Below are positions 19,163 to 62,085 of a DNA stretch of 64,000 bases, piece after piece. Position numbers and translations under genes: made by a program. This stretch comes from Cryomorpha ignava (lineage in GTDB: Bacteria; Bacteroidota; Bacteroidia; Flavobacteriales_D; Cryomorphaceae), in NCBI RefSeq assembly GCF_010686655.1, contig NZ_JAAGVY010000012.1, positions 1-64,000 of the forward strand, written 5' to 3'. Within the stretch, counting starts at the first letter, position 1. Each line of letters starts with the position of its first letter. Under the pieces are notes generated by a model. That model was given only the letters and a program-made list of their open reading frames with translations. It had not been told where the DNA came from and did no database searches.

Positions 19163-19909
19163 TTACTTAATTTTCTTAATATAGCTCTCAATTGCCATTG
19201 ACATAGAGGGCAGGCCGGGAGTAGGAGCATGCACATCAATATTGAGACCCGCTTTCTTAACGGCGTCGGCTGTCGTTGCCCCAAAAGCGGCAATGCGAGT
19301 ATTATTCTGCTTAAAATCAGGGAAGTTTTTAAACAGAGACTCTATACCAGACGGGCTGAAGAATACGAGCATATCGTAATTTACATCTGCTAAATCTGAA
19401 AGATCGCTACATACCGTTTGGTAAAAAACCGATTTGGAGTAGCGGATATTATGCTTGTCTAGCAAGTCAGTAATATTTCGTTTGTGAATATCGCTACACG
19501 GCAAAAGATAGCGCTCATTTTTATGCTTTTTGATTACATCAAGCAAGTCCTGAAAGCTCTGCTTACCGTGAAATATTTTCCGCTTGCGGTACACAACGTA
19601 CTTTTGCAAATAATAAGCAGTAGATTCCGATAAACAAAAATATTTCAACGAATCGGGCACAATGATGCGCATCTCTTCACACATTCTGAAAAAATGGTCT
19701 ACAGCATTTCTACTGGTTAATATTACTGCCGTATGTTCCAGAATACTCACGCGTTCTTGCCTGAATTCTTTGGCGGGAATTCCCTCAACGTGAATAAATG
19801 AACGGAAATCAATCTTTACCTTGTACTTTGCAGCAAGGTCAAAATAAGGTGACTTTTCCGTAGTTGGTTTAGGTTGTGAAATCAAAATAGATTTGACCTT
19901 ATCAGCCAT
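19163..19909 (-). CDS. Uroporphyrinogen-III synthase-like protein (rnpA-linked paralogue)
   Basis: At 248 residues this has the two-lobed HemD pattern: an N-terminal KSILISQPKPT strand, an EHTAVILTSRNAVDHFF motif, and a C-terminal YDMLVFFSPSGIESLF followed by RIAAFGATTADAVKKAGL. HemD closes hydroxymethylbilane to uroporphyrinogen III in the cytoplasm. A second HemD is present in the hemAC operon at 29694, so this copy may be a divergent paralogue with another role. It sits between DUF4271 and rnpA, the standard Bacteroidota arrangement, and is probably co-transcribed with DUF4271 (33-bp gap). Confidence 0.8.
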   Translation of the reverse strand: MADKVKSILISQPKPTTEKSPYFDLAAKYKVKIDFRSFIHVEGIPAKEFRQERVSILEHTAVILTSRNAVDHFFRMCEEMRIIVPDSLKYFCLSESTAYYLQKYVVYRKRKIFHGKQSFQDLLDVIKKHKNERYLLPCSDIHKRNITDLLDKHNIRYSKSVFYQTVCSDLSDLADVNYDMLVFFSPSGIESLFKNFPDFKQNNTRIAAFGATTADAVKKAGLNIDVHAPTPGLPSMSMAIESYIKKIK

Positions 19910-19942: not shown

Positions 19943-20656
19943 CTACGCTATTTCTGTGTTGAACAGTTTCCAGACAACCATAAAAGGTAGAATTTCAAGG
20001 GTGCAAAGGTACAAAATAATATATACCCGTGAAACAGTGTAACTAAAACTCATCAATAGGCCCTGAAAAAGGCGAAAGAGGATAAAAAGCAGAAAGAGAA
20101 CACCAATAACATTGAAAAGAATATTAAGAGAGCCTACGTTAATAAAACATATCGCAATTGCTAAAGGCAAGAATATGACTCCCAGAGCCTTATTAACCAA
20201 AAAGACCTCAAAAAGATATTCCTTTACAATACCCGGATCATGCAGCACTTTTCGTAAAATAAAATTTAAGACAAGCTTTAGCAAATACACTCCCGCCACC
20301 AATGCCACATATATAAGGTAAAGCTCCCACCCCTCGGCCTGCGTAAAATTCCATCCATAAAATTTCGAAGCACCAAATAGAATAAGACCGATTACGAGTG
20401 CGAAATTGATAAATAAAAGCACAGAAACACGGTGTGAAAAAACCAACTCTTCGCGCATTACCTGGCGCAAAATCTGAATTCGCACCAAACTACTAAACAG
20501 CCGAAAAAGCCTCCTGGTGTAGGCAGCGCGCACATAAGCAAGCACAACGAGTATAACGAAAAATGCGGCAAGCATCCAATATTCATAAAGATTTGGAGTA
20601 TGACGCAGCTCTGGAATCAACTGGCCGGTGTTATTTATTTGAAGCAAAATATGCAC
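19943..20656 (-). CDS. DUF4271 integral membrane protein
   Basis: This 237-residue protein has about six hydrophobic helices (for example WMLAAFFVILVVLAYV, LLFINFALVIGLILFGA and VIFLPLAIAICFINVG). The order DUF4271 - hemD-like - rnpA identifies the family. It is an inner-membrane protein of unknown function, restricted as far as I know to Bacteroidota. Confidence 0.8.
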   Translation of the reverse strand: MHILLQINNTGQLIPELRHTPNLYEYWMLAAFFVILVVLAYVRAAYTRRLFRLFSSLVRIQILRQVMREELVFSHRVSVLLFINFALVIGLILFGASKFYGWNFTQAEGWELYLIYVALVAGVYLLKLVLNFILRKVLHDPGIVKEYLFEVFLVNKALGVIFLPLAIAICFINVGSLNILFNVIGVLFLLFILFRLFQGLLMSFSYTVSRVYIILYLCTLEILPFMVVWKLFNTEIA

Positions 20657-29693: not shown

Positions 29694-30353
29694 TCAAATA
29701 TACATACTTTTCAATATCGCTCCCCAAATCCACTCTTCTAAAGGATGCTCAGCGCGAATTTTATTCAAAACTCCGCGCTTTTCCAAAGCCGTATCTGTCG
29801 TTTTACCAATAGCTACAACAACCTGATTTTCACCCAATTCATACAAATCAAGATAAGCATCAGCATTGCTCGGCGATGTGAAAATCAAATAATCAGCAGT
29901 GCTTTTTGAAATTTCTGGTGCAGATACATTTTCATAAAATTCCCACTCTATCAACTGATTTTCAGGAACTATTCCATGCATCCGCTTCAAACTTTTGTCG
30001 CTACAAGCCATTATTACCGTTTCAGTGGATGGTAGCATTTCGGCAAATTCATCAATACCTTCTTTCGGATCTGTTCCTTTTGGTAAAAATGAAACTTGCC
30101 AACCTTGCTCTTCTACGGCGCGTTCTGTTCCGGGGCCGATAACACCAATTTTAAATGTACTTGCATCAAATTTTTCGGCGAAGAGTTCAACGCCTGAAGG
30201 TGACAAAAAGAAAATCCAGTCGGCTTTTGGAAGGGTCAAATCACTTTTTAGACGAAGCGAAATACAAGATTGCTTTTCGATAGTAATAGTGTGCTTGCGC
30301 TCGAGTTCGGTGAAAAAATCTCCTAGATAATCGCGACTAAGAAATAGTGTTAA
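29694..30353 (-). CDS. hemD: Uroporphyrinogen-III synthase, without its own start codon
   Basis: HemD cyclises hydroxymethylbilane to uroporphyrinogen III. The conserved opening strand (LTLFLSRDYLGDFFTEL) is at 30353-30303. The frame also contains ADWIFFLSPSGVELFAEKF, KIGVIGPGTERAVEEQG, and DYLIFTSPSNADAYLDLYE near the C-terminus, and ends at 29694. No ATG, GTG or TTG exists upstream of or within that opening strand. The first candidate is the TTG at 30239, which would delete about 38 residues. The frame is open upstream into hemC, one base out of register, across a run of nine A residues. It may be made as a HemC-HemD fusion by slippage, or the window may carry an indel there. Confidence 0.75.
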   Translation of the reverse strand, partial: LTLFLSRDYLGDFFTELERKHTITIEKQSCISLRLKSDLTLPKADWIFFLSPSGVELFAEKFDASTFKIGVIGPGTERAVEEQGWQVSFLPKGTDPKEGIDEFAEMLPSTETVIMACSDKSLKRMHGIVPENQLIEWEFYENVSAPEISKSTADYLIFTSPSNADAYLDLYELGENQVVVAIGKTTDTALEKRGVLNKIRAEHPLEEWIWGAILKSMYI

Positions 30354-31258
30354 GCCAGAACTTTTTTTTTGAGTTGAGCCGCAGCTTTTTGAGCCAGACC
30401 GTCAGTCGTTTTAGCTTTAAGGAATACAGACGAAGGCATCTCGCCATAGCGTGGCGACATAATGGCGCGTAGCTCCACACCTTCGGCTGTTTCTATGCAA
30501 TACGCACCAAGTGGCAATTGGCAACCGCCATCAAAAAGGTTGAGCACCTTGCGTTCTGTGGCCACCAAATTAGCAATTTTGGTATTGTGAAGGGCTTTTA
30601 GAATCTCTGCCAGCTCTGTGTCTGAAGATCTGATTTGGCAAGCCAAAGCACCTTGTGCAGGAGCCGGAATAAACTCACGTGGATCAAATTCGAAAGCATC
30701 CAAATCGCTAACATCCAGATTGAGTCGGTCGAGTCCAGCTTTCGCCAAAACAATTGCATCAAAATGTCCGTCGCGTAACTTTTGTACGCGAGTAGGAACG
30801 TTTCCACGAATGTCGTCAATTTCCAAATCGGGACGGTGAAGCGTCAACTGCATTTTTCGGCGGGCGCTCGAAGTACCAACTTTAATGTTTTTCTTCAACG
30901 TCCAGCGTTCATTGCTATCGGTAAAACCTTTGCGAATGAGCAAAATGTCAGCGGGATTGGCCCGGTTTAAAATGGCTGCAATACTTAAATCGTCAGGCTG
31001 ATTTGTCTCCAAATCTTTAAAAGAATGCACAGCTAAATCGACTTGGTTTGCGAGCAAAGCTGTTTCAAGCTCTTTGGTAAAAAAGCCTTTGCCTTCCATC
31101 TTGTCAAAACTCAAGTGCTGAATAATATCGCCCTGTGTTTTAATGATTTGAATGCGGACTGCGTGTCCTTCTTTCTCAAGTAAATCTTTGATATAATTTG
31201 CCTGCCACAAGGCCAGGTCGCTCCCACGCGAACCAATTACGATTTCAGAATTTCTCAC
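30350..31258 (-). CDS. hemC: Porphobilinogen deaminase (hydroxymethylbilane synthase)
   Basis: This 302-residue enzyme polymerises four porphobilinogens into hydroxymethylbilane. Seen motifs are IGSRGSDLALWQANYIK, SFDKMEGKGFFTKELE, VHSFKDLETNQPDDL, RGNVPTRVQKL and the dipyrromethane-cofactor cysteine in FDGGCQLPLGAYC. Its start overlaps the hemA stop by 4 bp (ATGA). The C-terminus ends KKKVLA, with the three Lys codons forming nine consecutive A residues at the hemD junction. Confidence 0.95.
   Translation of the reverse strand: MRNSEIVIGSRGSDLALWQANYIKDLLEKEGHAVRIQIIKTQGDIIQHLSFDKMEGKGFFTKELETALLANQVDLAVHSFKDLETNQPDDLSIAAILNRANPADILLIRKGFTDSNERWTLKKNIKVGTSSARRKMQLTLHRPDLEIDDIRGNVPTRVQKLRDGHFDAIVLAKAGLDRLNLDVSDLDAFEFDPREFIPAPAQGALACQIRSSDTELAEILKALHNTKIANLVATERKVLNLFDGGCQLPLGAYCIETAEGVELRAIMSPRYGEMPSSVFLKAKTTDGLAQKAAAQLKKKVLA
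30362..30370 (-). other. Nine-A slippery run at the hemC-hemD junction
   Basis: On the coding strand three AAA codons of hemC are followed by GTT CTG GCT TAA. A -1 shift on this run, or addition of one A during transcription, enters the open hemD frame as AGT TCT GGC TTA and skips the hemC stop. Confidence 0.6.
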
Positions 31259-32511
31259 TTCGACTTATTCAACATGACTTCCTTGGCCATTTTCATGGGA
31301 ACGGAAATATATTTTTTCTCCATATAGGCTATCACCTTGTCGAGCACTTCGCGCGATTCGGCATTCATCTCGCTTAGCTCTTTGGCATAAACGGTTCCTA
31401 AAGCAGTATCTCTAATTTCTTTAACTTTTTGGGGGATTTGACGCATTGCCAACTCCACTTCGCGATCTCTGTACATATCGTGAAACTCCATCAGCTTGGT
31501 ATCTATAATCACTTCGCAATTTTTAATTTCACTCGATCGCTCTGCTAGATTCTTATCGGCAATGACCTTAAGCATAGCAATATCGATATACTTAAGGCTG
31601 GTTTCGGCTTTCGCCAAAACATCAGTTGAAACATCTCCTGGAATGGCAAGGTCGATGATTACTTTTCTGCTTTTTTCGCCTTGAGCTAGCGTATCATAAA
31701 TTGCTTCTGTAAGAACCGGCTCACCAGAAGATGTGCAAGTAATACAAATATCAAATCCGGTGGTGTGGTTAGGAAGTTCGGTAAGGGCAGATGCTTTCGC
31801 TCCAACTTCATTGGCCAGAGCCACAGCTTTATCAACCGAACGATTGTAAATATGAATGTTCTTGTAGCCGTGCTTAGCCAAAAAGCGAATCATCGCTCTA
31901 TTGGTTTTTCCGGCACCGATCATTACAATCCGACTGTCGGCGGGCATATTCAAATCACGCAAACGGTGAAAACCGAGAGAAACTACAGAAACCGGCTTTT
32001 TGAAAATGGCCGTTTCGGTAAAGATCAGCTTAGCTGTTTCGATTGTTTTGCGAATCAAGAGACGGATAAAATCGCCAGTAAGGCCAATTTTATGACAATC
32101 TTCGTACGATTTACGCACTTGAGTAATGATTTCGCGCTCGCCAATAACCATCGAATCGAGCGATGCACTCACCCGAAATAGGTGCTTCACACCATCATCG
32201 GCACGGTGAACTTCGGCTCCTTTTGTGATAAGATTGAAGTCGGTTTCTGATAAATCCAAATCCATTGCCGCCACAAGATCTTTGGCATCTATCTGATTTC
32301 CGGGACTTTGAACAACCAAAAACTCTACCCGATTGCAAGTAGAAAGGTACATAAGCTCATCAAGCTTAAGGGTCTTTTTTAGTGCGGTAAGTTTGTCCTG
32401 AATAAAATTTGGATCAATATGAAATTTACCCACCATCTCCAAAGGGAGAACCTTGTGGGTAAAGGCAAAAACCGAAAATCTTCTTAAAGCCTGTGTAATC
32501 ATATTGACCAC
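31255..32511 (-). CDS. hemA: Glutamyl-tRNA reductase
   Basis: This 418-residue enzyme starts C5-pathway tetrapyrrole synthesis by reducing glutamyl-tRNA. The catalytic Cys is in LMYLSTCNRVEF, the substrate region in HLFRVSASLDSMVIGEREI, and the NADPH domain in RIVMIGAGKTNRAMIRFL. It is the first gene of the hemA-hemC-hemD operon. The C-terminal dimerisation region is helical as expected. Confidence 0.95.
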   Translation of the reverse strand: MVNMITQALRRFSVFAFTHKVLPLEMVGKFHIDPNFIQDKLTALKKTLKLDELMYLSTCNRVEFLVVQSPGNQIDAKDLVAAMDLDLSETDFNLITKGAEVHRADDGVKHLFRVSASLDSMVIGEREIITQVRKSYEDCHKIGLTGDFIRLLIRKTIETAKLIFTETAIFKKPVSVVSLGFHRLRDLNMPADSRIVMIGAGKTNRAMIRFLAKHGYKNIHIYNRSVDKAVALANEVGAKASALTELPNHTTGFDICITCTSSGEPVLTEAIYDTLAQGEKSRKVIIDLAIPGDVSTDVLAKAETSLKYIDIAMLKVIADKNLAERSSEIKNCEVIIDTKLMEFHDMYRDREVELAMRQIPQKVKEIRDTALGTVYAKELSEMNAESREVLDKVIAYMEKKYISVPMKMAKEVMLNKSK

Positions 32512-34760: not shown

Positions 34761-35230
34761 AATAAACGTTTTAATTAATATATCGAACTATTTTAAAATA
34801 AGCCTACTCTAGGTTTTCGGCATCCCCATCTATACTTATTCCTCAAGTATCTTTCAGATTAATCAAGTATCTTTCAGAAACTCAAACATAAAAAAAAAAA
34901 TTCGTAGTCATCCAACTTCAAGGTTTCATCTTCTTCTTATTATTTATATTATTTTAACATATTCCGGAGCTTATAATTTCGGTCAACCCACACCTAAAAT
35001 TTACTACAAAATTTTAAATTAAAATTGAGCTGTTCCGAATTTAACAAATAAAAACCCCTTTCGAGATTATACTGTCAACTTTCAAATTTTGTCATTGCCA
35101 TTATATGCCTAAAATATATTAACAAAACTATGAAATGTGCGTCACACACTATGTATAAAGGAGTTAACATTGTTTTAAGATTAGATTTAAATTCTTTTTA
35201 CCTTAATGAATATCTCAATTAACTAGTATA
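34761..35230. other. Very AT-rich gene-free interval
   Basis: These 470 bases contain poly-A/T tracts and a 16-bp direct repeat (TCAAGTATCTTTCAGA at 34843-34858 and 34863-34878). There is no credible open frame. The interval starts exactly where the normal C-terminal coding sequence of nrdB would be expected to continue. Confidence 0.5.
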
Positions 35231-36115: not shown

Positions 36116-36560
36116 GATTAAATTCTTAATTTTTACCTTTTCGTTAGAAAATTGAAAATTTCTAATATTTTCCAGCTACTAATGCTGGGTTTCAATCAAA
36201 AGTAACTGATTTATCCTTACCGAGTGTGGTTTTCGCTACTTCAGTGATCCATAAAGAACTGAAATATTCAAAATACGTTGCTGATTTTCACAATAACTAA
36301 TACTCAAAACAAAATGAATCCGGTTTAGCACGCACCTGGCGGGCCGCCAGAAGAAAAAAGCCTCGCGGGACGCTAGCCTTGAAGCAGCCTTGGAATTCTA
36401 TCTAAGTTGGCATACGAGCGAGTTTTTCGTTGAATTGATGGTTCCTGTTTTAACCGCAAAAACACTAAGATTTTACGCCAAGGTCGCAAAAAAAAATAGA
36501 TTGTCATACGCCGTTTTACCATCCACAGCCTCGGTATTGAAGCGTCTTATAAACAACATC
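36116..36560. other. Intergenic region with dispersed-repeat traces
   Basis: This gap contains a GC-rich palindrome (TGGCGG-G-CCGCCA near 36338) and a stretch near 36455-36492 resembling the CGCAAA/ACGCCAAGG low-complexity repeats common in bacterial intergenic DNA. No gene is supported; a 62-codon plus-strand frame here is repeat-derived. Confidence 0.4.
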
Positions 36561-61306: not shown

Positions 61307-62085
61307 GATTTAACTCCTTCCTTAAAAGTGAATGCTTCTTTTTTCAGAACGCGCGTAGTAGCGTATCCATTTTTCGTTGGAAGAATCTCAATAATCATAT
61401 TCCCATATTCATGAGCTAACTCAGAGTGATGGGTAACAATCACGGCCACTTTGTTTTTCTCTTTTATATGATCACTGAGAATTCCGAAAAGCGCTTTTGA
61501 GTTTTCGATATCCAGATTTCCAGTTGGTTCATCTGCCAGTAGAATCGAAAATTGGCCTACAAGGGCTCTCACAAATGCTACTCGCTGTTTCTGTCCACCC
61601 GATATTTCCTGCGGCGACCTATCCAGAATATCATCGGGTAAACTCATCTTTTTTAATAGGAGTTTTACCTCTGACTCAATTTTATTTTGCTCGTCGGGTG
61701 TGAAATTAGCCGCCATCAAAATATTCTCAAGAACAGAGAAATTTGACATCAGATTGGTCGTTTGAAAAATAAAACTAAAGAGTTTTTCTCTGATCGATGT
61801 AAGCTTATTTTCATCTCTCTTCCAAAGATATTCGGGATTGAAATTTTCATTTAAAATAGAAAATTCAGAACTGGAATCATCAAAATTTTTAAATGTATTA
61901 CTCATCAAACCTATGCTTTCTAGCAGCGTACTTTTTCCAATCCCCGACGGCCCTATAATAAAGACCATTCCCGCTCGCGGAATGAGTAGGTCAGGAATAT
62001 TCAATATGACTTTGCTGTCGTAGCCAAATTGAATATTTTTAAAAAAAAATGCAGCATCATTTTGCATAAAAAGTGGATTAACCAA
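61303..62085 (-). CDS. MacB/LolD-type ABC ATPase
   Basis: The 260-residue ATPase has Walker A FIIGPSGIGKSTLLESIGLM, a Q-loop near FSFIFQTTNLMSNFSV, signature ISGGQKQRVAFVRALVG, Walker B ILLADEPTGNLD and H-loop VIVTHHSELAHE. DEPTGNLD is the pattern of LolD, MacB and FtsE. It overlaps the permease on one side by 4 bp and the VWA gene on the other by 8 bp, so it belongs to this complex. Confidence 0.88.
   Translation of the reverse strand: MVNPLFMQNDAAFFFKNIQFGYDSKVILNIPDLLIPRAGMVFIIGPSGIGKSTLLESIGLMSNTFKNFDDSSSEFSILNENFNPEYLWKRDENKLTSIREKLFSFIFQTTNLMSNFSVLENILMAANFTPDEQNKIESEVKLLLKKMSLPDDILDRSPQEISGGQKQRVAFVRALVGQFSILLADEPTGNLDIENSKALFGILSDHIKEKNKVAVIVTHHSELAHEYGNMIIEILPTKNGYATTRVLKKEAFTFKEGVKS

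Follow-up and report, generated by a model that had tools for sequence, protein, structure and literature searches.

How can a cell make uroporphyrinogen-III synthase (HemD) from a reading frame that offers no start codon ahead of the conserved opening of the enzyme? This question is raised by the hemC-hemD junction of the window, i.e., the whole 64-kb stretch of Cryomorpha ignava DNA analysed here, whose features of interest are collected in Table 1. The sense strand of hemC ends in CTC AAA AAA AAA GTT CTG GCT TAA, the nine A appearing as nine T on the + strand, and the HemC translation ends three codons beyond the run. The first-pass annotation had proposed that hemD lacks ATG, GTG and TTG ahead of its LFLSRD opening, that its frame is open into hemC, and that a -1 shift on the nine-A run in the last hemC codons unites the two genes. 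Regarding the first point, none of the three codons is found between the closest upstream TGA of the hemD frame and LFLSRD. The second is right only in part: the frame does extend into hemC, but for just about ten codons before the run, where it meets that TGA. The third is confirmed, as the gain of one A or the loss of two A within the run converts the window hemC and hemD into one open frame. As encoded, the pair is not a plain HemC-HemD fusion, i.e., a single continuous ORF, for the hemC TAA intervenes and hemD is in the -1 frame.

Table 1. Features of the window that surround the hemC-hemD junction or encode a HEM4-family protein
Feature	Position	Strand	Details
hemC (hydroxymethylbilane synthase)	30350..31258	-	GTG start, 302 aa; PF01379 E=2.9e-73, PF03900 E=4.1e-6
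hemC stop TAA	30350-30352	-	from the ORF list
A9 slippage run (putative)	30362..30370	-	zero-frame AAA AAA AAA; CTC before, GTT after
hemD frame past the run	29694..30362	-	222 aa + stop; -1 to hemC; PF02602 (HEM4) E=4.5e-20
Conserved HemD opening LFLSRD (strand 1)	30330..30347	-	31-sequence HemD alignment; strand E4-8 of the model
TGA, closest hemD-frame stop upstream	30402..30404	-	31 nt 5' of the A9 run
TTG, first canonical start in the hemD frame	30237..30239	-	residue 42
hemA (glutamyl-tRNA reductase)	31255..32511	-	4-nt overlap with the hemC start; cluster hemA-hemC-hemD
Second HEM4-family (PF02602) gene	19163-19909	-	
DUF4271 gene	19943-20656	-	neighbour of the second HEM4 gene

The part of HemD that precedes any start codon belongs to the body of the protein. 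The AF2 model of the window HemD, built from a 30-row alignment, has a pLDDT of 96.2, and its best fold match in the PDB is 1jr2_A, a uroporphyrinogen III synthase (E=2.1e-11); by this model, the window hemD encodes the full domain and fold of a uroporphyrinogen-III synthase, with the corresponding activity predicted. The first four secondary-structure elements of the model all precede the first start codon, and initiation at the TTG would drop the strands 4-8, 26-30 and 34-38 together with the helix 15-23. Moreover, a VFISR-like block is common to start-less, fused and normally started HemD proteins in the 31-sequence alignment, the sequence of locus L187 being the most divergent. In practical terms, annotation based on start codons will either trim the first 41 residues of the window HemD or label the gene as broken.

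The next question is whether this arrangement is peculiar to one genome. The comparison drew on 296 Bacteroidia loci that encode relatives of HemC or HemD, six of them without one of the two genes, and the merging of identical junctions led to 238 unique loci, of which 152 have separate and 86 plainly fused genes. A run of nine (15 loci) or ten (4 loci) A was found in the last hemC codons of 19 of the 152 separate loci, distributed over 12 genera and six family codes: L001 (the window, g1) and L002 (g2) in f1; L020 in f5; L187, with A10, in f6; L102, L103 and L105 in f9 (g20); L010, L015, L058, L081, L207, L226 and L282 in f17; and L212, L222, L223, L224 and L225 in f24 (g121). The figure of 19 is a count of genomes and not of independent events, nor should 19 of 152 be read as a prevalence, because f9, f17 and f24 were searched on purpose once the runs had been seen, while most of the matched f8 genomes lie outside the set.

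At all 19 run loci, hemD is in the -1 frame and lacks a start codon, 18 of them by rule (ATG, GTG or TTG sought from 15 codons before to 3 after the HMM start) and L187 by inspection. As in the window, one additional A or two fewer A give a single open frame, of 516-589 aa, at each of the 19 loci, and other changes of length soon lead to a stop; past the run, hemD stays open for 215-224 codons in every case. Among the 144 unique separate pairs with an aligned HMM start, 18 have the run and no start, none has both, one has neither run nor start, and the other 125 have a start and no run (Fisher P=5e-22); in other words, 18 of the 19 alignable start-less loci carry the run. A looser rule, under which a start may lie as far as 15 codons into the domain, places the run loci L105 and L212 in the class with a start and changes the table to 16/2/0/126 (P=2e-19); the rule was tightened because the starts of L105 and L212 sit at +7 and -40 codons. 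Eight of the 152 were kept out of the table because their HMM start was unaligned; they include L187, which has A10 and no start and is counted among the 19, and three further ones (L176, L186 and L188) that have an ATG in context, as judged by eye.

The plain fusions of Bacteroidia, represented by the 86 unique fused junctions, have the same gene order and domains as the pair discussed here. Unlike it, they are one continuous ORF, and 85 of the 86 have no run of at least nine A at the junction, the exception being L090. The class-wide matches listed are mostly single frames of about 510-600 aa, and plain fusion is thus the commonest state among them.

Such runs are not scattered at random over these genes. 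At unique loci, the bodies of hemC and hemD (304,822 bp in total) contain only four runs of at least nine A, whereas the junction windows (16,602 bp) contain 20 (the 19 plus L090), which corresponds to an odds ratio of 92 (Fisher 1.6e-22). The 64-kb window as a whole has four A/T runs of at least nine, compared with about nine predicted by a third-order Markov model. The other three are at 34890-34900 (A11), 36488-36496 (A9) and 62041-62049 (A9), the last one inside an ORF and near its TTG start. The A run and the start-less hemD in the -1 frame, shared by 19 genomes from 12 genera, are thus best described as a conserved putative slippage site in a core pathway, one that extends beyond a single genome; the suggestion that slippage on the run gives a HemC-HemD fusion, first made for the window, is strongly supported by this comparison, and the fixed ratio of HemC to fusion that the first-pass annotation envisaged would be a possible consequence.

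Which enzyme would slip? The most convincing answer, and one that we regard as probable, is that RNA polymerase slippage on A9 yields both HemC and a HemC-HemD fusion, the latter being the only source of this HemD. According to this proposal, hemC and hemD would form one transcription unit, and the polymerase would slip on the A9 at the 3' end of hemC. HemC alone would come from transcripts that keep the nine A of the template, a HemC-HemD fusion of about 521 aa from those with one extra A, and one of 520 aa from those with two fewer A; the fusion would be the only route to the HemD of this locus. HemC works slowly and HemD fast, so that a little fusion could be enough for a larger pool of HemC, and a supply of HemC alone accompanied by a smaller share of fusion would presumably suit the pathway.

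Several properties of the 19 loci are in line with this proposal. As in recognised slippage genes, an A/T run of at least nine is placed at the frame junction, in the window and at every other run locus; an indel in the run unites two ORFs in 19 of 19; and run and frame are conserved over the 19 genomes and 12 genera, the run being invariant in g121. Its length is always 9 or 10 and never 7 or 8, nine A being a length reported to allow efficient polymerase slippage and to be avoided in many genomes (PMC1088944, PMC5009743). In addition, each of the three codon phases is represented among the runs (at 5, 3 and 11 loci), and the next base is G in 16 cases and C in 3. The -1 frame found throughout is favoured by transcriptional and ribosomal slippage alike. 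What speaks against the proposal is that all 19 genomes have a second HEM4-family gene, so the HemD made from the junction need not be essential, and that one close pair, L222/L223, has little constraint in the start-less part of hemD, in contrast to the two close pairs described below.

The rival that survives best is ribosomal -1 frameshifting on the A run, of the dnaX type, by which the fusion would be made either instead of or alongside polymerase slippage; we consider it possible, if rather unlikely. The slippery heptamer A_AAA_AAA is in frame at all 19 sites, hemD is always in the -1 frame, and A_AAA_AAG, the classical bacterial site of ribosomal slippage, is present at 10 of the 19, the window not being one of these. 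Moreover, the window genome has, among its typed tRNAs (one tRNA has no clear anticodon), a tRNA-Lys with the anticodon TTT only, and a single tRNA-Lys has been linked to ribosomal slippage in E. coli (PMC5009743). However, six or seven A suffice for a ribosomal heptamer, and no run of 7 or 8 was found; three of the 19 runs end in AAC, and six, the window included, are without AAG. The stimulators of the dnaX type, namely an upstream Shine-Dalgarno-like motif and a downstream stem-loop, do not recur over the 19 loci: the motif is present at just 3 of 19, and downstream structure reaches a z below -2 at just 3 of 19 (with mononucleotide shuffles, which make a weak test), neither being found in the window. 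From this comparison of sequences we infer that RNA polymerase, rather than the ribosome, would be the slipping enzyme.

It is highly unlikely that HemD is instead initiated, by coupling to the termination of hemC, on a non-canonical codon or on the internal TTG, although odd starts may occur, because one locus (L109, genome G017) offers only ATT and ATC codons. There, hemD overlaps the hemC stop, no A run is present, and no ATG, GTG or TTG is found near the N-terminus, the first coming no earlier than +14 codons. In the window, however, CTG, ATT, ATC and ATA are also absent from the hemD frame before LFLSRD, the first near-cognate codon being an ATT located 3' of it, and a protein begun at the internal TTG would lack the first strands of the model. 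At six loci (L002, L081, L102, L103, L105 and L187), a hemD-frame stop codon lies directly against the run or overlaps it, and hence the ribosome must enter this frame at the run or after it. The segment that an internal start would leave out is, moreover, conserved. For six pairs of loci, pN/pS was calculated over the hemD segment that extends from the run to the first start codon. The pair L102/L103 has 12 synonymous and 7 non-synonymous differences (pS 0.38, pN 0.06) and L224/L225 has 6 and 2 (pS 0.20, pN 0.02), whereas the short stretch of L222/L223 gives pS 0.16 and pN 0.14, i.e., little constraint, and the three wider pairs give pS 0.71-0.88 and pN 0.26-0.32. The start-less part of hemD is therefore under purifying selection in the two close pairs L102/L103 and L224/L225. 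The first-pass annotation had held that another start codon for HemD would undo its proposal; none was found at any of the 19 run loci.

A sequencing or assembly error, with a true run of A10 (or A7) and a plain fusion as in most Bacteroidia, was another explanation to consider, given that homopolymers are error-prone and that plain fusions prevail in the class-wide listing. It is hardly credible because 19 assemblies with unlike flanks, two of them single contigs (G025 and G722), always present the same relative frame, and both A9 and A10 are out of frame. For the same reason, the alternative of ten A, named by the first-pass annotation along with the advice to check the run length in related genomes, turned out to be very unlikely. 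The five g121 genomes agree with one another, the run being 100% identical in all of them while the preceding 30 nt are only 63-77% identical in nine of the ten pairs (100% in the tenth, L224/L225), and just one of the 86 unique plain fusions has a junction run of at least nine A.

Equally improbable is that hemD is a decaying pseudogene whose role was taken over by the second HEM4 gene, for which the presence of a second PF02602 gene in all 19 run genomes could be quoted. Against this stand the length over which hemD remains open past the run at every locus and the constraint seen in the two close pairs. As for the second gene, in the window it adjoins the DUF4271 gene, and the control genome Bacteroides ihuae has a HEM4 (PF02602) protein with no match to URO-D (PF01208), which suggests that the second gene may have another role, outside heme. 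Uroporphyrinogen is presumably needed in all 19 run genomes, as each of them has hemE (PF01208), and since each also has the second HEM4 gene, the HemD made by slippage is possibly not the sole source of the activity.

Phase variation, by which replication slippage would toggle the genome between A9, with the genes unfused, and A10, with the genes fused, has a negligible chance, for although coding homopolymers are hypermutable and this class of frame transition is known (PMC3711429), 19 of the 20 loci with a junction run are unfused (binomial 2e-5, or 0.0017 when counted by genus), and an enzyme of core biosynthesis would be an odd target.

Transcriptional slippage at the hemC-hemD junction would have precedents, which resemble it to different extents. 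In Thermus thermophilus dnaX, slippage on nine A is described as adding one or more A (PMC1088944, PMC5009743); the two cases share the sense-strand A9, and the heterogeneous mRNAs that lead to two products in dnaX are the counterpart of those proposed for hemC-hemD. They differ in that, in dnaX, the longer product is read from the genomic frame and the shorter one arises by slippage, both within one protein, while the genomic frame of the hemC-hemD pair ends with HemC and a second enzyme would be added by slippage. Closer in layout is tssM1 of Citrobacter rodentium, where an A run (A11) shortly before the stop allows slippage to extend the protein, with about 20% frameshift and with both forms needed (PMC4256274); yet tssM1 is an interrupted single gene, whereas hemC and hemD encode two enzymes of one pathway and the run is present in 12 genera. 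Overlapping ORFs united by slippage on A/T runs are also known for orfA-orfB of IS elements and for mxiE of Shigella (PMC1088944), but these are mobile or virulence genes, and hemC-hemD belongs to core heme biosynthesis.

Among the main texts of the open literature searched, no paper on hemC-hemD slippage was found, although a row in the GeneTack data of PMC3711429 is conceivable, and by word search hemC is not mentioned in the main text of PMC3711429 or in the first 300,000 characters of PMC5009743. If the proposal is true, a core metabolic pair would join a list that, in the examples seen here, has so far consisted mostly of replication, mobile-element and secretion genes; this second enzyme would then have no source other than slippage, which would also determine how much of it is made relative to the enzyme that precedes it in the pathway.

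How did such junctions arise? HemC-HemD fusions also occur elsewhere, e.g., in Leptospira, and in Bacteroidia the sister lineages of run loci carry a plain fusion or a normal start, which is why the run may be viewed as a recurrent intermediate of fusion or fission. The run label requires 12 changes on a 129-row HemC tree, with at least three forced by well-supported branches. With a 56-row tree, the grouping of the 19 loci into one clade is rejected (p=0.00028), with the proviso that several branches are long and that the trait itself served to define the group. Within f24, the run is present in each of the five g121 genomes, and each of the five g81 genomes has a plain fusion and no run, while f17 holds all three states, i.e., fused, slipping and separately started. 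This coexistence makes it testable whether a slippage site can carry genes between fusion and fission. On balance, we give even chances to the wider reading in which A-run slippage in Bacteroidia is a recurrent, selectively kept fusion/fission intermediate that replaces the start codon, sets the HemC:HemD ratio, and was gained or lost several times.

Some minor observations accompany these results. In L090 (genome G038), the linker of a plain fusion contains an A9 that is in frame, and its genus mate L104 has no run of seven or more A; this A9 might act as a mirror image of the window run, with slippage giving HemC alone, of about 299-305 aa. A divergent second type of HemC, with about 36-39% identity to the queries and a long branch, is found at L188, L189, L294, L295 and L296, and G804 has both types. 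Finally, just downstream of hemD in the window, an AbiEii-like nucleotidyltransferase gene (PF08843; 28489-29357, minus strand) comes after a DUF6922 gene, and the two look like a pair of the toxin-antitoxin type.
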